Assembly (NCBI GenBank): GCA_017798145.1
Contig: CP059069.1
Location: 4,325,226 to 4,389,225 of the forward strand
From: Akkermansiaceae bacterium
Lineage (GTDB): Bacteria; Verrucomicrobiota; Verrucomicrobiia; Verrucomicrobiales; Akkermansiaceae
DNA length: 64,000 bases
Direction: 5' to 3'
The notes under the pieces are model-generated. The model had not been told where the DNA came from. It saw only the letters and a list, made by a program, of their open reading frames with translations, and searched no databases. Position 1 is the stretch's first letter. Each line of letters begins with the position of its first letter. This document shows, one piece after another, positions 7,382 to 60,280 of this stretch. The translations under genes were made by a program, and so were the position numbers.

Positions 7382-7390
7382 GCAGTTATG

Positions 7391-8473
7391 TCAGTTGTTC
7401 AGTATCTCGGCAGTGACTTTTTCGGGCGCATCCGAAATGGCGAGGGATTTCGCGGCGGCGGACATTTTTGAAAGCGCGGCGGGATCGGCGAGTAGGCCGA
7501 TAAGGAGCTTGGCGAGGCAATCCGGGGTGAGATCTTTCTGCTGGATCAGTTTGGCGGCTCCGGCATCGGAGAAAACCCTGGCGTTTGCCGTCTGGTGGTC
7601 GTCGGCGGCGAAGGGGTAGGGGACGAGAATGGAAGGGAGGCCGGCGAGGGAGATTTCCGTGAGGGTGGATGCTCCGGAGCGGGCGATGACGAGATCCGCC
7701 AGGGCGTAGGCGGAGGGCATCTGGTCGCAGAAGCCGATGAGCTTGTAGCCGGGGCGCTGGACGGGGTTTTCCGAGGCGATGCGGTCGCGGTCGTTCGGGC
7801 CGGCGATGTGCAGGATCTGGATATCTTCAGGAAGAAGGGGGGCGGCCTTTGCGGTGAGCTGGTTGAGGCCGAGCGCACCCTGCGAGCCGCCGGTGACGAG
7901 GATGGTCTGCTTGTGAGGGTCGAGGCCGAAGCGTGCGGCGGCATCGGCGCGGGAGGGGAGGTTGAGGATTTCCGGGCGGGCGGGGGTGCCGGTGAGCTGG
8001 GTGGGTGCCTTGAAGAAGGCGGCGGCGGGTTGGAGGCCGATGAAGACCTTGGTGCAGAAGCGGGAGGTGAGGATGTTCGCCCGTCCCGGACGGGCGTTGG
8101 AATCGTGGACGAATGTTTTCTTTCCGAGCTTGTGCCCGGCATAGACGGGGGGGAGCGAGGTGAATCCTCCCATGCCCAGAACGGCGTCGGCACCGAATTC
8201 ACGGATGATCTTTTTCGATGTCCGGATGGATTGGTAAAGCGCCCAGAGGAAAGGGAGCATCTTCGGGGAGAGTGTGGCGGGCTTTGCGATTGCAGGGACC
8301 ACCCTGAAGGTGAGGTGCGGATATTTTGCTGATGCCTGCGAATCGATTTTCTTCTGGGAAATGAGAAGCAGCGGCTCGTGTCCCTGCGCAAGCAGGGACT
8401 CAGCGACGGCGATGCCTGGGAAGAGGTGGCCGCCGGTGCCCCCACAGGCGATTAATATTTTTTTCGGAGACAT
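7391..8473 (-). CDS. murG: UDP-N-acetylglucosamine--N-acetylmuramyl-(pentapeptide) pyrophosphoryl-undecaprenol N-acetylglucosamine transferase
   Basis: A 360-residue GT28 glycosyltransferase that makes lipid II from lipid I on the inner face of the membrane. Diagnostic parts are the N-terminal glycine loop ACGGTGGHLFPG (residues 10-20), the central GMGGFTSLPPVYAG, the HDSNARPGRAN segment (the family has HEQN) and the C-terminal domain with TGGSQGALGLN and the UDP-GlcNAc-binding RSGASTLTEI. Length is normal. It is not embedded in a dcw cluster: neighbours are a dehydrogenase and a peptidase, so this organism has a dispersed division and cell-wall cluster. Confidence 0.95.
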   Translation of the reverse strand: MSPKKILIACGGTGGHLFPGIAVAESLLAQGHEPLLLISQKKIDSQASAKYPHLTFRVVPAIAKPATLSPKMLPFLWALYQSIRTSKKIIREFGADAVLGMGGFTSLPPVYAGHKLGKKTFVHDSNARPGRANILTSRFCTKVFIGLQPAAAFFKAPTQLTGTPARPEILNLPSRADAAARFGLDPHKQTILVTGGSQGALGLNQLTAKAAPLLPEDIQILHIAGPNDRDRIASENPVQRPGYKLIGFCDQMPSAYALADLVIARSGASTLTEISLAGLPSILVPYPFAADDHQTANARVFSDAGAAKLIQQKDLTPDCLAKLLIGLLADPAALSKMSAAAKSLAISDAPEKVTAEILNN

Positions 8474-8611
8474 GTTATGAAAGCGGAGCGGGGGCTGTTG
8501 GGCGGGGATTTCCGGTGATCGGGTTTCGATTGGAAGTTGCTTGCTAAATGTTATTGGCGAAGGTGCCTAGTTTGAGACTCTTCAACAAATTGCATATAAC
8601 TCTCAACTGCT

Positions 8612-10702
8612 TCAGGCCAAGCCTGCCCGTGCGAGGAGAGCGGTGGGGTCGGCGGGTCGGGACATGAAGTTCTCATAGAGGGTCTCTGCGGGGGCGGAGT
8701 TGCCTTTGCTCAGGATTTCCCGGCGGAACGACATGCCTGTCTCGGGGTTGAGGATTCCCTCTTTCTGGAATCGGGTGAAGGCATCCGCATCTAGCACCTC
8801 GGCCCATTTGTAGGAGTAGTAGCCGGCGGCGTAGCCGGTGGGGGAGCTGAACAGGTGGTTGAAGCGGTGCGCCATGGAGGGGCTGGGGGTGGTGACGGGA
8901 GCGCGGTAGGTGGCGAGGATCTCGCGGGTCACCTCATCGAGGTGGCGGCCGAGGTATTTGCCGAGGTGGATGTGGAGCTCGAGGTCGAGCTTGCCGTGGG
9001 CGAGTTGGGTCATGAAGGTGCTTGCGCTGAGGTAGTTCTTGGCGGCTACCATTTTCCCGAAAAGGTCTTCCGGGATGGTTGCGCCGGTCTCGTGGTGGCG
9101 GGCAAAGAGATCGAGTGTCTCGCGCTCCCAGCAATAGTTCTCCATGATCTGGGAGGGCAGCTCGACGAAGTCCCATGCGACGTTGGTTCCGGAAAGGGAT
9201 TTCACCGGGACATCGGAGAGCATGCCGTGGAGAAGGTGGCCGAACTCGTGGAAGATGGTCTCTACCTCGCGGTGGGTTAGGAGGGCGTCCTTACCGCCGA
9301 CGGGCGGGGTCATGTTGCCGATGATGAGGCCGAGGTGGGGCTCGCCGGGGCCGCCGGTGAGAAGGGAGTTCATCCATGCGCCGCCGCGTTTCGTTTCACG
9401 CGGGTGCCAGTCGGCGTAGAAGGAACCGAGGTGTTTCCCGGTTTCCGAGTCGTGGATCTCGTAGAATGTGACCTCCGGGTGCCAGGTCTCGACTGCCCCG
9501 TCCATGGCAGGGTCGGGGGGGCTACCGGGTTCGTAGTAGATGGTTTCGAGCTGGGTGATGGTGATTCCGAAGATGCGGGTGGCGATCTCGAACATGCCTT
9601 CCATAACGCCGGTGACGGGGAAGTAGGGGCGCAGGGCTTCGTCGTCTATGGCATAGTTTTCCTTGCGCTGGAGCTCGGCGTAGTAGGCCGTTTCCCATGG
9701 TTCCAGAGGCTGGGGTAGTTGGGCGCCATGATGCCGCCCCTCCTTGGTGGCCTTGTATTGGGCGAGTTGCCGGACCTCCTCCTTGAACCGTGTCTCGATA
9801 CGCTCGTGGATCCGCTCGACGAAGGCGAGGGCGGTTTCGCCGTCGCGGGCCATGCGGCGCTGGAGGGTGAGGTCGGCGAAATTCGCATGACCTAGGATTT
9901 GGGCCTTTTCGTGGCGGAGCTTGAGGATCTCCCAGACAAGTGAGGAATTGTCGTAGGGCTCGTGGACGGCTACGTTGACCGAAGCCTCCCAGACGGTCTT
10001 GCGCAGGTTCTCGTCCTCCGCGTGCTGCATGATGGGATACATCGATGGGAACTGGAGTGTGAAACGATAGCTGCCCTCCGGATGTCCTTTGGCCTTGGCG
10101 TTGGCGGCGGCGCCGGCGAGGGCGGATTCGGGTAGCCCGGCGAGTTTGGCCTTGTCGTCGATGACGAGTTCCCATGCGTTGGTGGAATCGAGGACGTGTT
10201 CGGAGTATTGTTTGGTGAGCTTGGAGAGTTCCGAGTCGATCGCGGCGATGCGGGCTTTTTTGTCATCGGGAAGGGCGGCGCCGGAGGTCTTGAAATCCTC
10301 GATGGTTTCCTGGATGTGGCGTTGGTGAATGGGTGGGAGGGCTGCGGCGGCTTGGCTTTCCGCAAAGGTGTTGAGGATCTTGAACAGTTGGGGGTTGAGC
10401 GAGAGCGAGGAGTAGAAATCGGTGACTGCGGGCAGCATCCTGTTGAGCGCTTCGCGTTGGGCGGGATTGTCGGAGACGGAATCGAGGTGCTGCAGCCTGC
10501 CCCAGCCCAGCGACAGGGTTTCCGTGGCGTTTTCCAAGGCCAGGAAACTCGATTCGTAGGTGATTTCCGAGGCTGGCTGGGAACAGATTTTCCCGATGGC
10601 GTCCTTCGCGTCGGCGAGGGCTTGGGTGATGGATGGTACGATGGTTTCCGGGGTCAGTGTGGACCAGCGGACGTGGAAGTCTGGGGATAGGAATGGATGC
10701 AT
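8612..10702 (-). CDS. M3 family zinc metallopeptidase (oligopeptidase A-like)
   Basis: A 696-residue cytosolic oligopeptidase of the thimet/PrlC family that trims peptides up to about 20 residues, including cleaved signal peptides. The zinc site HEFGH is at residues 485-489 and the third ligand lies in DFVELPSQIMENY about 25 residues later. The N-terminal helical lid and the C-terminal YYSYKWAEVLDADAF are typical. The frame begins 14 codons earlier at 10744, but those codons are an AT-rich leader containing an inverted repeat (10718-10725 with 10734-10741), so the ATG at 10702 (MHPFLSPDF) is preferred. No strong ribosome site is seen at either. Confidence 0.9.
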   Translation of the reverse strand: MHPFLSPDFHVRWSTLTPETIVPSITQALADAKDAIGKICSQPASEITYESSFLALENATETLSLGWGRLQHLDSVSDNPAQREALNRMLPAVTDFYSSLSLNPQLFKILNTFAESQAAAALPPIHQRHIQETIEDFKTSGAALPDDKKARIAAIDSELSKLTKQYSEHVLDSTNAWELVIDDKAKLAGLPESALAGAAANAKAKGHPEGSYRFTLQFPSMYPIMQHAEDENLRKTVWEASVNVAVHEPYDNSSLVWEILKLRHEKAQILGHANFADLTLQRRMARDGETALAFVERIHERIETRFKEEVRQLAQYKATKEGRHHGAQLPQPLEPWETAYYAELQRKENYAIDDEALRPYFPVTGVMEGMFEIATRIFGITITQLETIYYEPGSPPDPAMDGAVETWHPEVTFYEIHDSETGKHLGSFYADWHPRETKRGGAWMNSLLTGGPGEPHLGLIIGNMTPPVGGKDALLTHREVETIFHEFGHLLHGMLSDVPVKSLSGTNVAWDFVELPSQIMENYCWERETLDLFARHHETGATIPEDLFGKMVAAKNYLSASTFMTQLAHGKLDLELHIHLGKYLGRHLDEVTREILATYRAPVTTPSPSMAHRFNHLFSSPTGYAAGYYSYKWAEVLDADAFTRFQKEGILNPETGMSFRREILSKGNSAPAETLYENFMSRPADPTALLARAGLA

Positions 10703-48960: not shown

Positions 48961-51900
48961 ATGAAAAAATCCCCGTCCATCACCCTGCTCATAGCGGCTG
49001 CCTGCAGCCTGTTCTCGCTGCCCTCCTCCCATGCCCAGGAGGACGACAGGGGCTTCATCAGGATGCCCATGCCCATCATGCCGCCCATGCCGCCGCCGCG
49101 CATTGTCGTCCGCACACCGGATGTCGGGCCGATGCAGACCCGCGAGATGTCGGTCGTATCACGGGTCAACGGGCTGCATGCCGTGGTCGAGACCACGATC
49201 GTTTTCCACAACCCCAATGCCCGCGACCTCGAGGGCGAGCTGGTTTTCCCCCTGCCCGACGGCGCGGCGGTCTGTGGCTACTCACTGGACATAGCCGGCG
49301 TGCTGGTGGATGGCGTGGTCGTGACCAAGGAGCGCGCCCGCGTCGCCTTCGAGACGGAGGTGCGCCGAAACGTCGATCCGGGCTTGGTCGAGCACATCCA
49401 GGGAAACCTCTACCGCACGCGGATCTATCCGCTCCCGGCCAACGGCGAGCGGCGCATCCGCCTGACCTACACCACGCCGCTCGCCACCGCCCAGAACGGT
49501 GATGCGGCCCTCCAAATCCCCATGCCGCGCGAGGTCATCGCAAAACTGGACGTGAAGATCGAGGTATCGGCCCCGGACGGCATCGCGCCCGAGGTCGGTG
49601 GCCTTGGCGATGCACGCTTCGAGAAAGCCGAAAAAATCTGGCGGGTCGCTTCCACCTCCGAGAACGCCAAGCCCGGCGAGGACATCCTCGTGGCGCTGCC
49701 GAAGCCCCCTGTCTCGTTCCAGCGCATCGAGCGGGATGCGGCGGGCACGAACCGTTTCATGGTCACGGCGCTTGCCCCGGCAAGGAAACAGATCGCACCG
49801 GAGCCCGGTAAAATCCATGTCCTCTGGGATGCCTCCGGAAGCCGCTACGGCGCGGATTTCACGAAGGAATTCGAGCTTCTGAAACGGACCAAGGCCACCG
49901 GCTACTCCCTCACCGTTTTCCGCGATATGCCGGAGCCCTCCCGCGATTTCGCGAACGTCGATGAACTCATCGCCGCCATCAAGGATGCGCCCTATGACGG
50001 TGGCACGGACATCTCCGTCCTTGCCAGCCAGCCAGCCGCCCACACCCTGCTTTTCACCGATGGCTTCGATACCCTTTCGGGTGTGACGCTGGAATTCGGC
50101 GGCTCCATACCCGTCGCGATCGTTTCGCAGACGGTGGCGAACCGCGAGGCCTTGCGTCAGGCCTGCGCCGGGGCGCTGATCGACCTGCAGACCACAACCC
50201 CGGAAGCGGCATGGTCTGAAATCGAAAACCCTTCCAGCCGCGTCATCGGGATCAAGGGCACCGGTGTCGCAAACGTCCAGGGGATAGGCCAGCCCGCCCA
50301 AGGCCGAATCAGCCTGCTCGGCGAGCTGACCGGCGATGAGGCATCCGTGCGCATCCAATACGCCGATGGCTCCGAGTCGGAACCTTTTGCCCTAAGCGGC
50401 GCCGATGCCACCGAGGGCGAAATCCTGGCCACCGCCTGGGCCGCCGCCCGCGTAAGCCAACTCTCGCCGCGCTCCGATGAATTTTCCGACGAACTCCTGA
50501 CACTCGGCAGGACATACGGCATCGTCAGCCCCGCGACCTCGCTCATCGTCCTTGAGACCCTCGACCAATGGGTGCGGCACGAGATCGAGCCACCGGCCAC
50601 CCTGCCGGACATGCGCCGCCAGTGGCAGGGGGAGATGAAACGCCTGGCCAAGCAGAACGATGCCGATCCTGCCCGGCGCCTGGAACAGATCGCAGGTCTT
50701 TGGAAAGAGCGTGTCGCATGGTGGAAAACCGATTTCTCGAAAGCCAGGGTTGAGCCCCGGGGAAATGGTCGTGAGGAAAACGAACGTGCCCTGACAGACA
50801 GCGCGGTTGCCGAGGCGGCTCCCAGCGCGCCTGCTTCCGCAGCGGATCCGTTTGCCGCGCCAAATGAACAACTCCAGCGCAACACCGGCGGTGGAGGCGG
50901 TGGATTCGCTCGAGGTATCGATGCGAAAATGGAAGCGGGTAAGGATGGCTCCGCACCAGGCGCCTCCATCGAGATCAAGCCCTGGAGCCCCGACACCCCC
51001 TACCTGAAAGCGATACGCGCGGCCAAGGACGGGCTGCGTTACTCCGCCTATCTGGATCAACGGGAAAAGTGGGCGGAAAGCCCGGCCTTTTTCCTCGACT
51101 GCGCCGGGGTGTTTTTCGGGGACGGCGAAGAAGCCCTCGCCCGCCGCATCCTCACAAACCTCGCCGAGCTTCGCATCGAGGAGCCCGGACTCCTGCGCGT
51201 GCTTGCATGGCGTTTGCAGCAGGCGGGGGAGTTTGATCCGGCCATAGTCATCCTCCGCCGCGTCGCCAAGCTCCGCCCGGAGGAACCACAATCGTTCCGC
51301 GATCTTGCACTCGCCCTTTCCGAGCGCGGTCGCTCCAAGAAAACCAAGGCCGACCTTGAGGAAGCGATGGGTCTTTTCCTCAAGGTCGCCCTGGGCGGCT
51401 GGGGTCGCCATGGTGAGAGCATCCCCATTTTTGCCCTGGAGGAAATGAACGGCCTCATCGCCTGGACAGAACGCCAGGATTGGCCGGAAGCCAAAAAACC
51501 GGTGATCCCGGAATTCGACAAGCGCCTGCGCGACAACCTCGACACCGACATCCGCATCGTCATGTCCTGGGACGCGGATGCGACCGACATGGACCTGCAC
51601 GTGATGGAACCCGGCGGCGAGGAAGCCTGCTACAGCCACAACCGCACCGCCCGCGGCGGGCTTGTCTCGCAGGACATCACCGATGGCTACGGCCCGGAGG
51701 AATACATGATCCGCAAGGCGCCTGAGGGCGGCTACGCGATCAGCACGAACTATTTCGGATCGCGCCAGCAAACCGTTGTCGGCCCGGCCACCGTCACCGC
51801 AACGGTTTTCACGAACTGGGGCAGGCCAAACGAGGAGCGCCAGGTGCTCACCATCCGCCTCGACAAGGAGAAGGAGAAAATCGACATCGGAACGATCACG

Positions 51901-52122
51901 TTCGGGAGTTCCGAACCCCCAGCGGATAAGGGGAATCTCCGCACCGGGATGAAAAGGGAAGAAGTGCTCGCGCTCTTTCCCAATCCCACCGACCCCGCCG
52001 CCAATCCATTGGAATACCCTGACGGTGCAAAGACCCTGAAAATTTTCTTCAACAAAAAGGGCAAGCTTCGCCGTGTTGTGGAAACCCTGCCCGGCGGGAC
52101 GGAGACCATCATACTGCAATGA
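48961..52122 (+). CDS. Giant exported VIT/VWA/TPR/DUF2135 protein with BamE-like tail
   Basis: A 1053-residue protein with signal peptide (residues 1-25, ending SHAQ). Order: Met/Pro-rich stretch (35-48); VIT domain (about 58-190, DLEGELVFPLPDGAAV and VEHIQGNLYRTRIYP); VWA-like domain (about 280-400, with MIDAS-type DASGSR near 290); low-complexity Gly/Ala region (about 620-660); TPR-like helices (about 690-800); DUF2135 (about 860-975, SWDADATDMDLHVMEPGG). The tail (GMKREEVLALFPNPTD) looks like BamE/SmpA. VIT-VWA proteins bind partner proteins in the envelope; no function is established. Its stop overlaps a downstream ATG (ATGA). Confidence 0.83.
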   Translation: MKKSPSITLLIAAACSLFSLPSSHAQEDDRGFIRMPMPIMPPMPPPRIVVRTPDVGPMQTREMSVVSRVNGLHAVVETTIVFHNPNARDLEGELVFPLPDGAAVCGYSLDIAGVLVDGVVVTKERARVAFETEVRRNVDPGLVEHIQGNLYRTRIYPLPANGERRIRLTYTTPLATAQNGDAALQIPMPREVIAKLDVKIEVSAPDGIAPEVGGLGDARFEKAEKIWRVASTSENAKPGEDILVALPKPPVSFQRIERDAAGTNRFMVTALAPARKQIAPEPGKIHVLWDASGSRYGADFTKEFELLKRTKATGYSLTVFRDMPEPSRDFANVDELIAAIKDAPYDGGTDISVLASQPAAHTLLFTDGFDTLSGVTLEFGGSIPVAIVSQTVANREALRQACAGALIDLQTTTPEAAWSEIENPSSRVIGIKGTGVANVQGIGQPAQGRISLLGELTGDEASVRIQYADGSESEPFALSGADATEGEILATAWAAARVSQLSPRSDEFSDELLTLGRTYGIVSPATSLIVLETLDQWVRHEIEPPATLPDMRRQWQGEMKRLAKQNDADPARRLEQIAGLWKERVAWWKTDFSKARVEPRGNGREENERALTDSAVAEAAPSAPASAADPFAAPNEQLQRNTGGGGGGFARGIDAKMEAGKDGSAPGASIEIKPWSPDTPYLKAIRAAKDGLRYSAYLDQREKWAESPAFFLDCAGVFFGDGEEALARRILTNLAELRIEEPGLLRVLAWRLQQAGEFDPAIVILRRVAKLRPEEPQSFRDLALALSERGRSKKTKADLEEAMGLFLKVALGGWGRHGESIPIFALEEMNGLIAWTERQDWPEAKKPVIPEFDKRLRDNLDTDIRIVMSWDADATDMDLHVMEPGGEEACYSHNRTARGGLVSQDITDGYGPEEYMIRKAPEGGYAISTNYFGSRQQTVVGPATVTATVFTNWGRPNEERQVLTIRLDKEKEKIDIGTITFGSSEPPADKGNLRTGMKREEVLALFPNPTDPAANPLEYPDGAKTLKIFFNKKGKLRRVVETLPGGTETIILQ

Positions 52123-52226
52123 ACTGCCGGAGAGCCATGCCTGTTTCCGGCTTCCCCAGCACAAGCGTATCCACGAAGGGGAATCCCAGGCTTGCCATCA
52201 ATCCGGAAATGACGTTTTATCCCGTT

Positions 52227-52787
52227 ATGGAAAAGTTACCAATATTTCTCATAGCGCTCGCATCCATGATTTCGACGGCCTTCGCGCAGATCGAGGCAGG
52301 CCAATCCGTCATCATCAAGATCATGGGAGTGCCCGCCGAAGAGAAGGCGAAGATCGACGAGACCTATCCGGTTGCGAAAAACGGGATGGTGAACATGCCC
52401 TTCGTCGGCGAGATCCGCGCGGCGGGGCTGGAGTCCCACGTGCTGGCGAAATCGATCCAGAACGCTTACCGCGATGGCGGGATTTTCAACAACGCGGTCA
52501 TCCAGGTGCTCGCCAACCAGAACGATATCGCGCCTGTCGAGCAGCAGGTTCACCTGGGAGGCCGAGTCAACGCTCCCGGGGCAAAACCTTTCCGCAACGG
52601 ACTGACGGTTTACCAAGCCATACAGGCTGCGGGTGGGCCCGATGAGTTCGGTGCGATGAACCGAGTGATCCTGATCCGTATGGGAAAACAGCAAATCATC
52701 GACCTCAGGACTATCGAAGGCAAGTCAGTGCTGGCTGATGTCCATGACACCATCGTGGTTCCCCAGAAGAATTGGCGGAACATGTAG
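52227..52787 (+). CDS. Polysaccharide export (Wza-type) / SLBB domain protein
   Basis: A 186-residue secreted protein with signal peptide (MEKLPIFLIALASMISTAFAQ). Residues 22-95 match the polysaccharide export domain (GQSVIIKIMGVPAEEKAKID, YPVAKNGMVNMPFVGEIRAAGL), and residues 105-150 form one SLBB fold (QQVHLGGRVNAPGAKPF). It lacks the large outer-membrane barrel helix of full Wza. The frame opens at an ATG overlapping the preceding stop (52119), but only from 52227 is there a clean signal peptide; the 52209 ATG is an alternative. It probably works with the VIT protein or an unlinked exporter. Confidence 0.8.
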   Translation: MEKLPIFLIALASMISTAFAQIEAGQSVIIKIMGVPAEEKAKIDETYPVAKNGMVNMPFVGEIRAAGLESHVLAKSIQNAYRDGGIFNNAVIQVLANQNDIAPVEQQVHLGGRVNAPGAKPFRNGLTVYQAIQAAGGPDEFGAMNRVILIRMGKQQIIDLRTIEGKSVLADVHDTIVVPQKNWRNM

Positions 52788-52842: not shown

Positions 52843-52870
52843 AGCCATCCCCTTGTTGGGATGGCTTTTT
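52843..52870 (+). terminator. Intrinsic terminator after the SLBB protein gene
   Basis: AGCCATCCC (52843-52851) pairs with GGGATGGCT (52858-52866), 6-base loop, followed by TTTT. It lies 55 bases after the stop and separates the VIT/SLBB unit from the cassette that starts at 52998. Confidence 0.9.
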
Positions 52871-52997
52871 CGTTTCCGTGAGTGGCGTCGGCACCAATCT
52901 CCGGCCTGGAGTTGTGCCGATTTCTCCGGATTCCGAAAGATTTGGATTGCATGTAATAGAAAAGAAGTCAGCTTTGGCCAAACCCATTTACTTTGTA

Positions 52998-55900
52998 ATG
53001 CCAAACCCACTTAACCCCATCGGGCTATCCGTTTTCATAACCGGGAAACGTGCTTGCGAGTCGCGCGGATTCGCGTTGGTCGTGACCCTCTCGCTGATGG
53101 TGCTCCTGAGCATCATCGCGCTCGGCATGCTATCGATCTCCTCGATCGCCCTGCGGGCATCCGGCGCGGGGGATGCGAATATGCTGGCGCGCGCCAATGC
53201 CCGGATGGCGCTGATGATGGCCATCGGCCAGTTGCAGCGCGAGATGGGGCCGGATTCACGCATCTCCACCCCGCATGATCTCGGCGGGCAGCCCGGTGGG
53301 AATCCCGGATGGGTCGGTGTCTTCGATGCCTGGAAAACGGATCCCGCCAACAGCACCACCCCATCGACCCCGCAATCCCGCGTGCTGAAATTCCGCACAT
53401 GGCTCGTCTCGGGCGCGGATGGTACGGGTGTCACCACGGGGGACATGGTGTCATTGCTTGGAACCGGGAGCCTCGGCACCAACGCGGCGGCGGATGATCT
53501 CGTCTCGGCTCCCTTGGTCGAGCTGACTGATCCCGGGAAAAAGGGGAAGATTGCCTGGTGGGTTTCCGATGAATCGGTAAAGGCCAAGGTCAATGCAGGC
53601 CCGGAATCGCCGAACAACCCGGCATTCGGCAATGCGAATGCCTTTTTCAACGCACAGTCCGCCCCGAATGTCGGCCACAAGGCTTTCACGGAGCTTGCCT
53701 CGCTCGATTGGAAGGAGGGCCAGCGCGGTGCGACGGTTTCCACCGGTGCGCTCGGCCTTGCCGCAGGGCTAGGTGCAAGCGGGGTTGGCGCCGCGATCCA
53801 TGACCTCACGGTGCATTCTTCCGGAGTTCTCGCAGATGTCCGCGAAGGGCGTCTCAAGCGAGATCTAAGCAGCCTGCTGGCACGTCCAATCGCCGAGTTG
53901 GAAAACAAGCCGCTCTATCTGGCCGACGGGCGCATGAACCGTTTCGAAATCACCGAACAAGGTGCGATTTCCAATGCCGCGTATATCCCCCCCAGCAGCG
54001 GCGCTGGGGCGAATCGCTGGGGGATCAACCTCGAGGAACTGCACCTGTTCCACCAGATCCACCGCGAGATCGACTGGAGCTCGGGAAAACCGCAGCTGGT
54101 CAACAAAAGTAGCAGGTCGCAGATGGTAAATGACCGATTCTTCATCTATCGGAAGCCGACCATGGAAGCCGTGAGCCTCATTCTGTCCCTCATCGCGTCC
54201 CCCGAGGCGGGAACCAACCCGGTCACCTACCGCATGGATGCGAACATGGACACCATCATCGCCCTCTCAAACCCGAACGACATCCCGACCGTGTGGCCGG
54301 ATAGCGTGCGTTTCCGCGTGGATACGGAGGGTTTCCCCTACAGGCCCGACTGGAACATCACCAGGAATGGTGTGGTGATCGTCGGTCATGTGGTTCAGCC
54401 GATCAACAGCCAATTCTTCAAATCCTCCCTACAGACCGGTTTCACCCTTGAGGCGGGGGAGGCAGCTGTGTTCGGCGCCTCCACCACAGACACGCAGGCC
54501 ACCCAGGTCAACCTGACGCGAGGTTACGTGCCGCGTGGCGGAGTTCGCATTGAAGACGGCGCATGGGATACAAACAACAGGCCCGATCCCTCGGACGGTC
54601 TACGGGCCACCGGCTTGCGGCCAACGGATAAAATGGATTTCTCGATGATCCCAGCCCCTGCGGGCAATGGGAATACTCCCAGCGGATGGATCTCATCCTA
54701 TGCGAGGATGACCGATACGTCCGGCGGGGGGACGACGAACCTGGCCACACACCGATTCGGGGGCGGCGGAGGCAGCAATTTAAACACCGCGCCGACAAGC
54801 ACCTACACGCCTGCGTCGATCCGGCCCTCGCAAAGGCCGGAAATTCGTGAGTTCATAGGGAAACCCTTGCCGGTGATCATGTTTACGACAATGTCGAACA
54901 CCGAAAGGAGTCGCACCAGCTTCCAGCCACCGAATGCAATCCCTTCACGCCCTTATCTGATCCACGAGCCGGCGACCACCAACATGATTGCCATAACCAA
55001 TCAGGCTCCAAATACCTTGCTGACAATGCATAGCTCACAATTGGTGAGCATCGCGGATCCAATGGACTACGCCTTCGGCAACGACCGCACCATGGCGGCG
55101 GGGGCCGGCGGGCGGAATCTATATCATGGTGGATCACGGGAAGCGGGTCTGGGTGGCAGCTTCAACGTGGTCAAGCGCCGCATACCGTTGGTGGCACCCC
55201 TTTCCCTTGGGGCTTTCGAAAACGCGATCGCCTGCGGGTTTTCCAGTCGTTTTGCAGGTGGTCCCTCGCTCAGCGCCGCCCCGGACACCCTGCCTACAAT
55301 GCCTGCCCCACGCCCAAACGGAAACGGGATGGAACCAGAGGCGACCATGGTGACACTGGCGAAATCCATAGGCAACTCATGGACGAACCCATTCCTGAGC
55401 TCCGATGTCATAGAAGACGGCACCTACCACGACCAGTCATGGATGGTGAACACCGCGCTCTGGGATTCATGGTTCCTTTCCGGCATCGTCGATGGACGTG
55501 GGGCCGGTGCCTCGACATGGATGAGCGATTCCCGCAGCCCGCTCGCACAGTTCCGCCAATTCGCCGAAACCGGTGGCGGGCTCCGCAACAAGCGCCTGAT
55601 CTATCACCCTAGCAAGCCGCTCAGCGAGGCCCTGGACGAGCTGTTCACGGGCGACGACTTCAAGCCGGCCGCCGTCAACAAGCTCACGAAATACCTGCTC
55701 GTCGACGGCGCGTTCAACGTGAACTCGACTTCGGAGGTGGCATGGAAGGCTTTTCTGACGAGTGTGAAGGGTCAGGAACTTCTCGATGCAAGCGGTTCTG
55801 CCCAGAAAAAGAGCCATCCATTCGGCACCCTTGGATATGCGGTCAGCCAAGCCACCAGCGGTACGGATGGGGACTGGAGAGGATTCCGGGATTTTAGCGA

Positions 55901-56450
55901 TTCCGATCTGGAAAAGCTCTCGAAGGCCATCGTTGAGGAAGTGAAAGCGCGCGGCCCATTCCTGAACATGGCGGACTTCGTGAACCGCCGCCCGAACGGA
56001 GCCACTGCCGCAGAAAAGGCCTTGGGTGCGCTGCAAGCTGCCATCGACAAGTCCGGGATCAACTCGCGCTTCCTCGGCGCAGGGCGCACCTTGGTGAGCG
56101 CCGACATATCCATGCTTGCGGGCAAGAACACATTGTCGGACGAGCCAACACCCGCACGTGCCATCGGTGGGGCGGGCTTTTTCAGCCAGGCTGCGTTGCT
56201 CACCTCGCTCGGCCCCCAGATCACGGTGCGTGGCGATACGTTTGTCATCCGCACATACGGGGATCACCGCAGTTCCACCGGCACCATCCTTTCCAAGGCG
56301 TGGTGCGAGGCGGTTGTCCAGAGGACTCCGGATTATGTGGACGCCACCGACGCGCCGGATACAACCGGGACGCTGACTGCGGCAAACGAAAGCTTCGGAA
56401 GGAAATTCAAGATCATTTCCTTCCGCTGGCTCAACTCCAAGGAAATCTGA
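52998..56450 (+). CDS. Verru_Chthon cassette protein A-like giant pseudopilin-like surface protein
   Basis: A 1150-residue protein. The N-terminus (residues 1-24 basic, then GFALVVTLSLMVLLSIIALGM at about 24-44) is a type III (prepilin-like) signal with probable cleavage after Gly24, though no Glu at +5 is present. The following 30 residues (LRASGAGDANMLARANARMALMMAIGQLQREM) are the conserved helix of the Verru_Chthon A family as recalled. The remainder is a large, Asn/Gly/Pro-rich, mostly beta region with no enzymatic motif. The family's usual B-D pseudopilin partners do not follow; two paralogous secreted proteins do. The start is the ATG after the in-frame upstream frame; a terminator ends the previous unit 128 bases upstream. 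Confidence 0.7.
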   Translation: MPNPLNPIGLSVFITGKRACESRGFALVVTLSLMVLLSIIALGMLSISSIALRASGAGDANMLARANARMALMMAIGQLQREMGPDSRISTPHDLGGQPGGNPGWVGVFDAWKTDPANSTTPSTPQSRVLKFRTWLVSGADGTGVTTGDMVSLLGTGSLGTNAAADDLVSAPLVELTDPGKKGKIAWWVSDESVKAKVNAGPESPNNPAFGNANAFFNAQSAPNVGHKAFTELASLDWKEGQRGATVSTGALGLAAGLGASGVGAAIHDLTVHSSGVLADVREGRLKRDLSSLLARPIAELENKPLYLADGRMNRFEITEQGAISNAAYIPPSSGAGANRWGINLEELHLFHQIHREIDWSSGKPQLVNKSSRSQMVNDRFFIYRKPTMEAVSLILSLIASPEAGTNPVTYRMDANMDTIIALSNPNDIPTVWPDSVRFRVDTEGFPYRPDWNITRNGVVIVGHVVQPINSQFFKSSLQTGFTLEAGEAAVFGASTTDTQATQVNLTRGYVPRGGVRIEDGAWDTNNRPDPSDGLRATGLRPTDKMDFSMIPAPAGNGNTPSGWISSYARMTDTSGGGTTNLATHRFGGGGGSNLNTAPTSTYTPASIRPSQRPEIREFIGKPLPVIMFTTMSNTERSRTSFQPPNAIPSRPYLIHEPATTNMIAITNQAPNTLLTMHSSQLVSIADPMDYAFGNDRTMAAGAGGRNLYHGGSREAGLGGSFNVVKRRIPLVAPLSLGAFENAIACGFSSRFAGGPSLSAAPDTLPTMPAPRPNGNGMEPEATMVTLAKSIGNSWTNPFLSSDVIEDGTYHDQSWMVNTALWDSWFLSGIVDGRGAGASTWMSDSRSPLAQFRQFAETGGGLRNKRLIYHPSKPLSEALDELFTGDDFKPAAVNKLTKYLLVDGAFNVNSTSEVAWKAFLTSVKGQELLDASGSAQKKSHPFGTLGYAVSQATSGTDGDWRGFRDFSDSDLEKLSKAIVEEVKARGPFLNMADFVNRRPNGATAAEKALGALQAAIDKSGINSRFLGAGRTLVSADISMLAGKNTLSDEPTPARAIGGAGFFSQAALLTSLGPQITVRGDTFVIRTYGDHRSSTGTILSKAWCEAVVQRTPDYVDATDAPDTTGTLTAANESFGRKFKIISFRWLNSKEI

Positions 56451-56452
56451 AC

Positions 56453-57211
56453 ATGCATCGCAACACATTCCCCGCTCCGGGCTCCCGACGAATTGCAGGG
56501 CTTGTCCGTCCGGCCTTCTCGCTATGCATGTCCATGCTTGCTTCCATCTCCTCGCTTGGCATTTGCCATGCTCAGGAAGCGCCAGTTCCCAATAAGAGGG
56601 AGGAAGGCCCCAAGGCGCGGATACTCTGTGTGCAGACTCTGACCAAAGCGGATGAGGAAGCGATCCTGGCAGTGAAAAACGAGGCTGGGGAATTCAGGGA
56701 GTATGGCAAGATCGAGCTCCGCACAGCGTTCATCGGCGATTGGGTGCCCGTGCAAAAAGGCGTTACCCATGTGGTTAGGAGGAAAGGTGAGGGATTCGCA
56801 TCCCTATGTTCGTTCACCATCGCCGAGGCTTCGAAACGGGTCATCCTCATCATGCTGCCCGACACAAAAACCAACACCTACCGCATTCAGGTGATCGATG
56901 TAGGAAAGCTCCGGTTCCAGAAAGGCAAGGCACTGATCGTGAACTATGGTGGTGTCCCGGCAGCGGTTGTGATGGGCAATAAGAACATCACTGTGGCTCC
57001 AGGCAAGCAGGTGGTCCAGGCCATCGATGCGAACGAGGACGGGATGTATCGCATGCTCATCGGCCATGTGGACAAGGACAGGAACATCGTGGCCTGCTAT
57101 GACCGCTATGTTTCCTCAAATCCCAACACCAGGAAGATTGTCCTGCTCTTCCCTGATCCGGACACCGGCCTGCGCGCGATGAGCCTTTCCGAATTCGGCC
57201 CCTTTGATTGA
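56453..57211 (+). CDS. Secreted paralog 1 of the cassette
   Basis: A 252-residue exported protein with a long basic signal region (residues 1-40, ending ICHAQ), start 2 bases after the giant gene's stop. The mature part is beta-rich. Its end, ACYDRYVSSNPNTRKIVLLFP and GLRAMSLSEFGPFD, closely matches the end of the next gene, and the two align throughout (both have ARILCVQT/MRLVCATS openings). No known domain is recognised. Position and homology make it a subunit of the same surface or secretion assembly as its neighbours. Confidence 0.75.
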   Translation: MHRNTFPAPGSRRIAGLVRPAFSLCMSMLASISSLGICHAQEAPVPNKREEGPKARILCVQTLTKADEEAILAVKNEAGEFREYGKIELRTAFIGDWVPVQKGVTHVVRRKGEGFASLCSFTIAEASKRVILIMLPDTKTNTYRIQVIDVGKLRFQKGKALIVNYGGVPAAVVMGNKNITVAPGKQVVQAIDANEDGMYRMLIGHVDKDRNIVACYDRYVSSNPNTRKIVLLFPDPDTGLRAMSLSEFGPFD

Positions 57212-57245
57212 TCCAATCTCCAGCAACAAAAAAACCACCATCGCT

Positions 57246-57947
57246 ATGACCACCCTTCCACTCACGCGCCGCGTGTTCCCTGCTTCCGTCCTGGCCGCAA
57301 CCGTGTCGATGGCAATGTCCCTCGCACCCACCGCAGCGGCGGACGGGGAAAAAATGCGCCTCGTATGCGCCACGAGCCTTGAGGAGGATCAGGAGCTGGT
57401 GCTCGCCTCGCGCGCAGAAGGAGGCGGTTGGCGGGAACTGGGCAAGGTGGTGATCAGGTCGTCACTCACCACCGACGTGTTGCCCGCCAAGCAGGGCGAG
57501 CTGCACCTCGCCGTGCGAAAAGGTGGCAAGCTCGAATCCATCTGCAAGTTCACTTTTCCGGCGGACGCGCGCCATGGCCTGGTCTTTTTGAAAGCGAACA
57601 CCGAGTCGAAGACCTACGATGCACATTTCGTGGATCCGGAGAAGGCGGGTTTTGTGAAAGGAAGCCTGCTGATCCTGAATCTCAGCGCGCATGAGGGAAC
57701 GGTGTCCCTTGGCGCCGCCGAGACGAAGGTGCCGGCGGGTGAGCGTGCGTTGGCGAAGCCGGCCACAGAGGACAACGGGATGTTCCAGATGCAGGTATCC
57801 TTCACGGACGAAAGCGGAAACGTGATGAATTGTTACGACCGCTATGTCTCCAGGAATCCGAATTCCCGTGACATGCTTTTACTCTTGCCCAGCGCAGAGA
57901 CCGGCATAATGGCGATGACATTGCCATTGTTCGGGGAGTTTGAGTGA
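57246..57947 (+). CDS. Secreted paralog 2 of the cassette
   Basis: A 233-residue exported protein, signal region MTTLPLTRRVFPASVLAATV through PTAAA. The RR at 8-9 is followed by V-F-P, not a full Tat motif. It is a paralog of the preceding gene: both end in a CYDRYVS.NPN.R motif followed by a hydrophobic strand (LLLLPSAETGIMAM here). The frame has a TTG at 57204, but the ATG at 57246 is preferred. Last gene of the unit; a hairpin at 57982 follows. Confidence 0.75.
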   Translation: MTTLPLTRRVFPASVLAATVSMAMSLAPTAAADGEKMRLVCATSLEEDQELVLASRAEGGGWRELGKVVIRSSLTTDVLPAKQGELHLAVRKGGKLESICKFTFPADARHGLVFLKANTESKTYDAHFVDPEKAGFVKGSLLILNLSAHEGTVSLGAAETKVPAGERALAKPATEDNGMFQMQVSFTDESGNVMNCYDRYVSRNPNSRDMLLLLPSAETGIMAMTLPLFGEFE

Positions 57948-57981
57948 GCCCTGCGCCTTTACCCCAATATCGATAAATCAA

Positions 57982-58016
57982 CACACCCGCCCCGGCCTGA
58001 GCCATGAGCGGGTGTG
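57982..58016. terminator. Hairpin between convergent cassette and PDZ gene
   Basis: CACACCCGC (57982-57990) pairs with GCGGGTGTG (58008-58016) with a 17-base loop. T tracts are weak on both sides (TTGATTT on the minus strand). It lies 35 bases after paralog 2 and 21 bases before the convergent gene's end. Confidence 0.5.
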
Positions 58017-58036
58017 CCTTGCCTCCCTGGAAAATT

Positions 58037-58960
58037 TCAGTTGTCGATGGTGTCAGCCTTGTCGCGCAGATTGCCAAGGCGGAAGGAAAAGCCAGTCCCG
58101 TTGCCGGAGCTCACCTTTTCGACGCGATCCCGGATGTCCTCCGGTGCGGCGGCCTTGTCCTCAGCCGTATTCCACGGCCCTTCCCAGATGATCCTGTTGT
58201 CCGTGCCGCGGACTTTCACCTGGGTGTCCCCTGCAGAGGTCTTGATCTCGATGGAGCCCTCCCCGTCCATGAGGCGTATCGTCGAGTTTTGCTGGATGGT
58301 TCCGCCTTCGGGAAAGGTGAAGTCCATGCTTCCGCCGAGGAGGTTCAAGCGTTCGCGCATCTGGCGGAAGGCGTTCTCAAACTGGGAGTCGGGCGCATCT
58401 CCACGTCCGAAGGCGCCTAGATTCTGGTCGAACAGGCTGCGCAGTCGATCCGCATGGATCTTGGGTATGCCATCGAGGAGAGGCTCGGCGTCCGTCCGGG
58501 CGATGGCATCCGCAGGGCGCTCGGCCAGGGTGACTTCGACCTTGGCGGGTTTGCCCTTGTGGATGAGATCCACCTTCAGTCGGTCGCCCGCCTTGCGGCC
58601 AAGGATTACCGAGGTGAGGGCGTCCGGACTTGCGACAGGCTTGCCGTCTAGGGATGTGATGATGTCGTTGGCGGAGAGTCCTGCCTTTTCCGCAGGGCTG
58701 TCCGGGCACACGGTGCGGATGATTACGCCCGTGCCCGCGGCAAGGCCGAGGTGATCCGCCACCATGTCCGGCACTTCCGCCGTGGCGATGCCGATGAATG
58801 GGGAGCTTTCCGCGCGCTGCGCCGGTGCATCCTCCCCTTGCAGCAGGGCTGCGGGAGGGGTGCTTGTCTCAGGCGGCGGCTCGATGGCGGCGGCGCTCGG
58901 GATGACGTTCAGTCCGACAATAATGCCGCTTGCAGAGATGATTCCTATTCCGATTTTCAT
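58037..58960 (-). CDS. Exported PDZ-domain protein
   Basis: A 307-residue protein with signal-like N-terminus (IISASGIIVGLNVIPSAAA) and one PDZ domain (about 58-150, ending the peptide groove with AGLSANDIITSLDGKPV). The C-terminal 150 residues are charged with an Asp/Gly-rich strand region and no protease domain. PDZ modules in the envelope recognise C-terminal peptides of misfolded proteins. It follows the anti-sigma gene on the same strand by 58 bases, so it may be a target or sensor of the ECF system, as DegP-like factors are in E. coli. Confidence 0.77.
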   Translation of the reverse strand: MKIGIGIISASGIIVGLNVIPSAAAIEPPPETSTPPAALLQGEDAPAQRAESSPFIGIATAEVPDMVADHLGLAAGTGVIIRTVCPDSPAEKAGLSANDIITSLDGKPVASPDALTSVILGRKAGDRLKVDLIHKGKPAKVEVTLAERPADAIARTDAEPLLDGIPKIHADRLRSLFDQNLGAFGRGDAPDSQFENAFRQMRERLNLLGGSMDFTFPEGGTIQQNSTIRLMDGEGSIEIKTSAGDTQVKVRGTDNRIIWEGPWNTAEDKAAAPEDIRDRVEKVSSGNGTGFSFRLGNLRDKADTIDN

Positions 58961-59018
58961 ATCGATTGCTTTCTATACTAGGAGCGTAGTAGATGAGGGG
59001 ATTTGTCTCCCGAAAGAG

Positions 59019-59675
59019 TCAGTCAATCTTTTCCGGGATGATGACGTACTCGTGGCGGGGCTTCTCCACCTGGTAGGTCTCGCCTTTCTCGTTCTTCAGG
59101 GTAACCATGTCGGTGAAAGTGAGCCGCCAGACCCGGTGTGGCTGGTTTTTGCCCCGCCAGATGACGCCTTCGTCGCGGGTCTCGCTGAGGTTGCGCCCGT
59201 ATCCGGCCGGGACGAAATTCGGATCGGGATGCGTATTGGGACTGGCATTGGGGATGGTTTTCCCCACCGCAGGTTTCCCATTGCCCGCTGTGGCCTTTCC
59301 GGCACCGCCCCACGGGATCATGAATGCGGTGAGAGCTCCGAGCAAAGCCACGGCGGCAGCCGCCGCAACGTTGAGGCGAGGGAAGCGGCGCACCTTTTCC
59401 AGGCCGGCCTTGGACTGTTTGTGGAAGAGCACGATCTTTTCATCCACGGCGAAGGGAGTCTCGCCGACCGCCGAGAGCAGGGACGCATGGAAGGCGGCGG
59501 GCAGCGGGCGTGGCTTGACGGCGGCTAGCGCGAGGCCGAAGGCGGCGTCCTCGCTGGAGAGCTCAAGGCCTGTGCCTTCCGCACAGGCGGTGAGGCGGTC
59601 TAGGAACGCGGCATCCGGCAGTGCGGGTGCCTTGCTGCGGAGTTCCTCCACGAAGATGTCTGGGATGTCTGGCAT
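59019..59675 (-). CDS. Putative anti-sigma factor, single-pass membrane protein
   Basis: A 218-residue protein following the ECF sigma gene by 26 bases. Residues 1-90 form a cytoplasmic alpha-helical region (MPDIPDIFVEELRSKAP ... FAVDEKIVLFHKQ) that would bind the sigma factor, residues 101-120 are a membrane helix (LNVAAAAAVALLGALTAFMI), and residues 125-218 are periplasmic. No zinc-binding ASD motif (HxxxCxxC) is seen. The assignment is from topology and position only, which is typical for ECF systems. Its periplasmic part contains no recognised fold. Confidence 0.66.
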   Translation of the reverse strand: MPDIPDIFVEELRSKAPALPDAAFLDRLTACAEGTGLELSSEDAAFGLALAAVKPRPLPAAFHASLLSAVGETPFAVDEKIVLFHKQSKAGLEKVRRFPRLNVAAAAAVALLGALTAFMIPWGGAGKATAGNGKPAVGKTIPNASPNTHPDPNFVPAGYGRNLSETRDEGVIWRGKNQPHRVWRLTFTDMVTLKNEKGETYQVEKPRHEYVIIPEKID

Positions 59676-59701
59676 ATCTTGTTGTTCGCTTGGTGGGTTT
59701 T

Positions 59702-60280
59702 TCAGATGGAGAGGTCGCCACGCCTGCGGGCGGAGCCTAGTTCGCGCTTCAGGGCTTCCAGTCCATAGCGATACCGGGAGGCGGCCGTGTTTTGGGAAAT
59801 TCCCAGCGCCTCCCCGATTTCCGCGAATGTCCTTTCACCCCATACTTTCATGATGACGACCTCGGAAAATTTTTCCGGCAAGGCTTTGAGCGCTTCCTCG
59901 AGCTGGGCGCGAACCTCGTCATCGGCGCCTTCCGCGTCGAACCACGGATGGAACGCCTCAAATTGCTCCGCCTCGGTGTCTGCGGAAACATTGTCCTCCC
60001 GGCGCTTGCGGCGGTCGTCCTTGCGGGAGAGGTCGATGGCGAGGCGGCGTATGGTGGTGTAAAGGTAGGGCTGCCATGCATCCTGGCCCCCGACGAATTC
60101 ACCGCCGCGTATCTTCTCCACGAGCTTCAGGATGGCATCCTGGAGCACGTCCTGGGCATCCTCATATGTGCGTGTCTGGTTCCGCGCGAACAGGAAAAGT
60201 TTCGGTGCATGTTCCTCGATCCACTCGCGCCAAGCGCTTGCGGCGGGTGAGGTCTGTATCGGGGCTTCTGTAACTGTCAT
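59702..60280 (-). CDS. ECF-family RNA polymerase sigma factor
   Basis: A 192-residue ECF sigma factor. Region 2 is DAQDVLQDAILKLVEK, with the DNA-melting and -10-reading part YLYTTIRRLAIDLSRKDDRR. Region 4 is LPEKFSEVVIMKVWGERTFAEIGEALGISQNTAASRYRYGLEALK. A charged linker (about 90-115) joins them. It heads a unit sigma, then putative anti-sigma, then PDZ protein, suggesting control by envelope stress. Its own promoter is not clear; the divergent spacer holds a palindrome at 60378. Confidence 0.88.
   Translation of the reverse strand: MTVTEAPIQTSPAASAWREWIEEHAPKLFLFARNQTRTYEDAQDVLQDAILKLVEKIRGGEFVGGQDAWQPYLYTTIRRLAIDLSRKDDRRKRREDNVSADTEAEQFEAFHPWFDAEGADDEVRAQLEEALKALPEKFSEVVIMKVWGERTFAEIGEALGISQNTAASRYRYGLEALKRELGSARRRGDLSI

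Follow-up and report, generated by a model that had tools for sequence, protein, structure and literature searches.

Giant GspK-like pseudopilins encoded with exported partners in Akkermansiaceae suggest a set of swappable filament tips

Descriptions of type II secretion systems (T2SS) and type IV filaments normally assign a single cap subunit to each system. A GspK-type subunit lacks Glu5; it can occupy only the tip position in a type IV filament or T2SS pseudopilus, where it starts assembly. The Akkermansiaceae, from which the DNA studied here derives, are important in gut mucus and in the breakdown of polysaccharides in marine and freshwater environments. The absence of Glu5 from tip subunits is documented, as is the pairing of the subunit CofB with the secreted protein CofJ (PMC10191384). 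In aquatic Akkermansiaceae, a pilus locus like Amuc_1098-1102 is conserved and has been proposed to serve attachment (PMC13174399), and Verruconatronum alginivorum carries very many PulG-like pseudopilin paralogs (67 homologs), one of which is over-expressed on alginate (PMC13274419). The Verru_Chthon cassette is defined by the protein models TIGR02600 (A), TIGR02598 (B), TIGR02599 (C) and TIGR02596 (D), and its name was found in no paper of the literature searched.

In the stretch of 64,000 nucleotides analysed here (the window), three open reading frames on the + strand occupy positions 52998-56450, 56453-57211 and 57246-57947, separated by gaps of 2 and 34 bases, which agrees with the co-directional trio described in the first-pass annotation. 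The first encodes a giant protein of 1150 aa that has no Pfam family. Its prepilin-like N-terminus, as claimed earlier, can be read in the sequence (SRG|FALVV; 53061..53246, + strand, including the helix), with Val and not Glu at position +5, and in the predicted model one helix spans residues 25-83. The two following genes encode partner 1 (252 aa, family A1/A5) and partner 2 (233 aa), both with a signal-peptide-like start and homologous to each other (33% identity across 226 residues, E 4e-49), so that their description as exported paralogs holds. An upstream gene for an SLBB/Poly_export protein (52119-52787) ends at a stem-loop resembling an intrinsic terminator (52843..52871, + strand; 9-pair stem, loop of 6, tail TTTTTC), and the terminator proposed there is thus present as a terminator-like site. 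The hairpin proposed near 57982 survives as an inverted repeat visible in the sequence (57981..58017, no strand assigned; arms CACACCCGC...GCGGGTGTG) but not as a terminator, since it lacks a T-run and the terminator scan gave no call there.

Judged from its sequence, the giant looks like a GspK-like cap pseudopilin, a description that fits it better than Verru_Chthon cassette protein A. At the superfamily level, it has a prepilin-like N-terminus without Glu5 and the C-terminal motifs of GspK in order. The N-terminus (...CESRG|FALVVTLSLMVLL...) matched a GspK profile with a probability of 95 and an E value of 2e-8, and the NCBIfam GspK model matched this region in 34 of 40 giants. Glu5 is absent from all 83 giants in which the position is readable; in the same genome, GspG, GspH and GspI carry it and GspK has Ala at that site. 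When compared by hhalign with 30 GspK sequences, the giant gave co-linear matches at residues 884-903, 959-997 and 1062-1107, with NxN, HhH-like and C-terminal strand motifs in order. The last of these (E 4e-4 to 2e-3), a short match of about 40 columns, scored 35, a value that none of 60 column-permuted controls reached (maximum 19.9); the other two are weak taken singly, and no single match to GspK is full length. For the middle region, 44 of the 60 permuted controls were equally high. The GspK-like C-terminal part (55647..56336, + strand) contains FNVNSTS, RGPFLNMADFVNRR and RGDTFVIRTYGD...EAVVQR. Between the GspK-like ends, an insert that is variable and about 650 residues long (approximately residues 217-883; 53646..55646, + strand) forms the gap separating the co-linear matches. 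It is rich in predicted beta strands, and its mean top-residue frequency in 50-residue blocks (in A7) is 0.21-0.48, compared with 0.40-0.62 in the C-terminal part. On the GspK model NF037980, the giant reached 22.3 bits, through its N-terminus only and below the curated cut-off of 130 bits, but this cut-off is strict for Verrucomicrobiota, as the genome's own canonical GspK scores just 83 bits. The PF03934 model gave no above-threshold match in the giants, and a sequence search of the giant against the PDB gave no match. A fold search with the whole giant, dominated by its long inserts, likewise returned no significant match; the best pilin was 3ci0_K at rank 5 (E 0.22, not significant).

The exported partner belongs to no known family in Pfam, NCBIfam or the PDB sequences. 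The best Pfam match among 44 members of the partner family was below threshold (E 0.047), neither partner had a credible match in NCBIfam, and the best PDB sequence was a de novo design (E 0.016). DUF4397 was considered as a name and not accepted, having matched 1 of the 44 members at E 0.096. The predicted model of partner 1 (pLDDT 88, about 97 in the mature part) contains two Ig-like beta-sandwiches. Foldseek related it to the extracellular domain of PepT1/PepT2 (5A9D, 5A9I; E 1e-7 to 4e-5) and to the C-terminal domain of AlgF (6D10; E 0.02), a likeness in tandem Ig-like beta-sandwiches that, at about 10% identity, concerns the fold only and carries no functional inference.

The genome itself has 12 loci with this grouping of giant and partner and its relatives have about 100, which is far beyond chance. 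Every one of the 12 giants is accompanied, directly on its 3' side, by one or more homologs of the exported protein; one partner is usual, and two constitute a sub-form, found here and also at L033, L036 and L037. The grouping had been taken as novel; it is not confined to this locus. A set of 25 genomes contained 114 giants with a C-terminus. The small gene followed 98 of them, at most 600 bp away and in the same orientation, and no partner was detected for the other 16, some of which are cut by contig ends; in 80 further loci, the small gene followed 68 of 85 non-edge giants. This gene-neighbourhood comparison was the co-occurrence test set beforehand, and it bears out the claim of a conserved cassette whose partners differ from pseudopilins B-D. 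The layout is divergent in five loci of Roseibacillus or related bacteria. More than 500 loci encode relatives of the giant, nearly all in Verrucomicrobiota and mostly in Akkermansiaceae. The giants of genus g10 have no detectable partner, just a very weak candidate, and the partner homologs in this genus and at the weakly related locus L031 of the genome itself are hints at E ~1e-3. The distances among giants and among partners are closely correlated, both across 71 pairs (r = 0.93, 0 of 2000 permutations as high) and across the 11 intact paralog pairs of the genome itself (r = 0.95, 0 of 5000). Such co-divergence would also be expected if the gene pair duplicates as one unit and is therefore no proof of contact.

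The reading that we favour, with a probability of about 55%, is that the giants serve as alternative caps for a filament, paired one by one with cognate exported tip proteins, on shared machinery. The cassette is one of about 12 dispersed copies; its first gene would encode an enlarged GspK-type minor pseudopilin and its second (sometimes also a third) a two-Ig-like-domain exported protein that would act as the cognate non-pilin partner of the cap. The prepilin peptidase, GspG-J and the secretin, encoded elsewhere, would be common to all cassettes, and a switch in which cassette is expressed would change the tip of the common filament. The genome has one canonical operon with the order G-H-I-J-K-L-M-C-D (GspG-K/L/M/C/D) at L181, a separate pseudopilin locus at L031, a prepilin peptidase and several GspE/PilB-type ATPases. 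The use of the giants in a filament, the binding of the partner to the giant and the target of the tip, including any glycan specificity, are what we infer. The first-pass annotation had also considered that ordinary B-D partners elsewhere in the genome might act without the paralogs, a condition that applies here only in part: pseudopilins are indeed encoded at L181 and L031, but the giants of this genome are always found with their own partner.

The giant had initially been taken for Verru_Chthon cassette protein A, and the cassettes could be a divergent branch of that family with the same function. The two proteins align across the first ~220 positions (probability 96.5, E 8e-10), both families are multi-copy in their genomes, and they replace one another by lineage. 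However, membership of TIGR02600 requires more than 332.3 bits along about 1296 positions, and the giant reached 27.9 bits with only the N-terminal 59 columns covered; nothing aligned past column 221, and the genome has no match to TIGR02600 above the cut-off. None of the 12 giants adjoins pseudopilin B, C or D, which true Verru_Chthon cassettes have. Score, coverage and neighbours thus rule out membership. The six true Verru_Chthon loci examined lack a homolog of the small protein and carry A-B-C-D-like genes, and one genome, G019, has both families with different partners. A common function for the two is therefore unlikely in our judgement. Three of the six true loci lie next to a gene some 2000 codons long that encodes autotransporter-like repeats, as judged from its sequence only.

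The giants might instead cap type IV pili of the Amuc_1098-1102 kind rather than a T2SS pseudopilus, the cassette providing an adhesive tip with the small protein as a PilY1-like adhesion module. The genome encodes two Amuc_1098-type pilus secretins besides the several ATPases, the conserved pilus locus has been linked to attachment (PMC13174399), and these families live on particles. The profile similarity, on the other hand, points to the GspK of T2SS, the genome has a GspG-K set that includes a GspK of its own, and none of the loci examined places a giant within a pilus operon; we regard a pilus tip as a possible but less probable assignment. The earlier idea that the giants build a surface layer or a fibre independent of both T2SS and pili fits the size of the giant, its strand-rich insert and its many copies per genome, but the missing Glu5 speaks against a main subunit that polymerises (PMC10191384) and the cassettes contain no assembly genes, which makes it quite improbable. 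That the cassettes are a self-duplicating gene family of little function, spread by recombination, is very improbable: one of the 12 copies is frameshifted (L024, 13836-17524), but the others are open over at least 1100 codons, their C-terminus is strongly conserved across genera and co-divergence with the partner is kept.

Under the favoured reading of alternative caps, the tip would most likely bind or export something specific to the growth substrate, for example a sulfated glycan. Among the neighbours of the cassettes, sulfatases accounted for 6/66 and sugar-regulator domains for 5/66, against at most 1/108 in random loci in each case, a link that rests on 11 loci with p ~0.01-0.03 per family. 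SASA esterases were not enriched (2/66 versus 3/108), and no carbohydrate gene adjoins the window's own cassette. It is a tentative extension that a dozen interchangeable, co-inherited tip pairs, each expressed together with a given glycan locus, could provide substrate-specific tips on one filament system. Our findings suggest a previously undescribed, swappable set of filament tips. About a dozen giant cap-like subunits with co-inherited partners, some in sulfatase or sugar-regulated neighbourhoods, would allow asking how tips choose their cargo or target. Many unannotated Akkermansiaceae proteins also acquire a name and a role that can be tested.

Compared with known systems, the giant shares with GspK/XcpX, the cap minor pseudopilin of type II secretion (3CI0, 5VTM), the N-terminus without Glu5 and the co-linear C-terminal motifs, but GspK has about 310 residues and is encoded with GspG-J, whereas the giants are far longer and occur in many copies with an exported partner. 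The Verru_Chthon cassette, from the same bacterial order, is similar in its multi-copy giant with a homologous prepilin-like start; it has B-D where the present cassette has an exported beta protein, and the rest of the giant is unalignable. Verruconatronum alginivorum is likewise a member of the Verrucomicrobiota with multiplied pseudopilins, but these are PulG-like and not giant GspK-like caps, and no partner is described (PMC13274419). The type IVb pilus pairs CofB/CofJ and TcpB/TcpF resemble the cassette in layout, as a tip minor pilin with a cognate exported non-pilin protein (PMC10191384), while the giants are GspK-like, with many alternatives per genome. If the tip pairs are indeed swappable, the multiplied SusC/SusD pairs of Bacteroidota would be their parallel in role.

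The long gene at 52998-56450 of the window encodes the 1150-aa giant and is followed, after gaps of 2 and 34 bases, by the genes for partner 1 (56453-57211, 252 aa) and partner 2 (57246-57947, 233 aa), in agreement with the first-pass annotation. Its description of the latter two as exported paralogs is also borne out by 33% identity (E 4e-49) and by signal-peptide-like stretches at both starts. The upstream terminator at 52843 is a stem-loop of terminator form, while the hairpin proposed downstream has the inverted repeat but not the T-run. Positions 48961-52122 encode an exported protein of 1053 aa that combines VIT and DUF2135 domains with TPR-like repeats; next to it, the gene for a short SLBB/Poly_export protein (52119-52787) stands without the other genes of an export operon. 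On the minus strand at 58037-60280, convergent with the cassette, the sequence suggests three successive genes, for a sigma-factor-like protein, a small possible anti-sigma factor and a PDZ-like exported protein.

Pfam gave no match above threshold to any of the three proteins, and the library matches of the giant were N-terminal only, at 22.3 bits to the GspK model NF037980 (cut-off, 130 bits) and 27.9 bits to TIGR02600 (cut-off, 332.3 bits). The score and coverage of the latter match, together with the neighboring genes, led to rejection of its proposed identity as Verru_Chthon protein A. Comparison with a GspK profile built from members of the phylum and E. coli K-12 GspK gave co-linear matches at four places: the N-terminus (probability, 95; E 2e-8), an NxN motif (giant residues 884-903), the region of the RGPF helix (959-997) and the last strands (1062-1107; E 4e-4 for the C-terminus alone). 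The C-terminal match scored 35, compared to a maximum of 19.9 in 60 column-permuted GspK alignments. The roughly 650 residues that separate these GspK-like ends matched nothing and include the least conserved stretches of the giant. The AlphaFold model (mean pLDDT, 82; pTM, 0.86) has one long helix (residues 25-83), as is characteristic of pilins, and a fold search listed E. coli GspK (3ci0_K) at a non-significant E 0.22. Glu5, the absence of which is the sign of a capping tip subunit (PMC10191384), is missing in all 83 giants with a readable cleavage motif. The GspK encoded in this genome also lacks it, in contrast to the GspG, GspH and GspI of the genome, in which it is present. The partner is modeled as all beta, with a pLDDT of about 97 over the mature part, and its only significant fold matches were the extracellular domains of PepT1 and PepT2, which are tandem Ig-like; matches to AlgF and to CBM41 starch-binding domains were weak. 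It falls in no Pfam family, and neither NCBIfam models, searched with the two window partners, nor the sequences of solved chains gave a credible match.

The window is from a genome assembled as a single contig of 4.39 Mb, in which the TIGR02600 search picked out 13 loci with long open reading frames, all scoring below the cut-off. Twelve are homologs of the window giant, and all 12 have a homolog of the window partners, of about 220 to 250 aa, directly 3', with a second copy at three loci (the window, L023 and L021). Eleven giants could be aligned, at 35% mean column identity; the twelfth (L024, 13836-17524) has a frameshift, with the frame switch between 15245 and 15275, which in an otherwise clean genome is either a pseudogene or an assembly error. 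The thirteenth locus (L031, 2803-8011) differs: its GspK-like protein of 905 aa, which matches NF037980 at 703-732, is accompanied by two pseudopilin-like genes and by two exported proteins that bear no more than a faint resemblance to the partner family.

Pairwise distances of giants and partners were strongly correlated (r = 0.93 over 71 pairs; none of 2,000 permutations as high). This held for the 11 intact pairs of the own genome (r = 0.95; 0 of 5,000 permutations), where species history has no effect on the correlation, and nearest neighbors were concordant in 9 of them. Giant and partner genes have thus been duplicated together and have diverged in step, which fits a physical pair of the two proteins but is no proof of one.

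The grouping of giant and exported partner, first noticed in the window, is conserved. Profile searches of 25 genomes, for both giant and partner, found 114 giants that had a C-terminus and, for 98 of these, a partner on the same strand within 600 bp 3'; some of the 16 others are at contig ends. In 85,000 species genomes, a scan identified at least 537 stretches that encode a giant relative, and in the loci from it the partner was the next gene for 68 of 85 non-edge giants (median gap, 33 bases). Nearly all named carriers belong to the Verrucomicrobiota, for the most part to the Akkermansiaceae as broadly defined in GTDB (Luteolibacter, Haloferula, Roseibacillus and Rubritalea); a few others include Prosthecobacter and Coraliomargarita, and one contig is labeled Deltaproteobacteria. 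The exact two-partner layout recurs in close relatives (L033, L036 and L037), and five loci (L045, L047, L053, L083 and L102) have the partner divergently upstream; these belong to Roseibacillus and relatives, and a conserved 239-aa exported protein comes after the partner. Across an evenly drawn sample of the order, no genome had the partner without a giant. Most genomes of one genus of the same family, probably Akkermansia, have one to four giant matches (loci L198, L199, L200 and L201, with a divergent pair at 5587-9498 and 9786-12731 of L199) and no clear partner, the single very weak candidate being an exported protein of 270 aa encoded 3' of one giant.

The own genome has a single canonical operon, G-H-I-J-K-L-M-C-D (L181; NCBIfam models recognize G, K and D, and the remaining genes are assigned from their order and weak matches), together with several GspE/PilB ATPases, two Amuc_1098-type pilus secretins and one A24 prepilin peptidase gene. 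Since this operon has its own GspK, the giants would be extra caps and not the sole ones. We favor, at a probability of roughly 0.55, a cap-plus-partner role with a type II secretion system (T2SS) or T2SS-like pseudopilus. The giant would be processed, initiate the filament in place of GspK and display its large variable insert; the exported partner would dock on the giant, while shared pseudopilins and the secretin would supply the remaining functions. That the giants are instead the tips of pili is a less probable reading, to which we give about half that credence; other readings take the remaining weight, and these rivals partly overlap.

Among the 66 proteins scanned up to about 5.5 kb from the own-genome cassettes, compared to 108 in 16 random loci, sulfatases (6/66 versus at most 1/108; p 0.012) and the sugar-regulator domain Peripla_BP_3 (5/66 versus at most 1/108; p 0.030) were enriched, together at p 0.0005, and a rhamnosidase adjoins the cassette at L026. 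The effect is small but suggestive of a link to glycan genes; no gene of these kinds is adjacent to the window cassette. In Verruconatronum, a PulG-like pseudopilin that has 67 homologs is overexpressed on alginate (PMC13274419).

Of 57 genomes of the order, 40 encode true TIGR02600 proteins; these genomes belong to families other than that of the window. One genome (G019) carries both kinds of giant. At three loci (L139, L141 and L142), true Verru_Chthon A-D cassettes adjoin a gene of about 2,000 to 2,400 codons with autotransporter-like repeats, possibly their cargo. In the Verru_Chthon loci read, protein A precedes or is flanked by pseudopilin-like genes and a partner homolog is absent, whereas the partner of the window-type giant is an exported protein. 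The two kinds of giant can be aligned over only the first 220 or so positions (E 8e-10) and are best regarded as oversized cap pseudopilins of two branches that differ in their partners.
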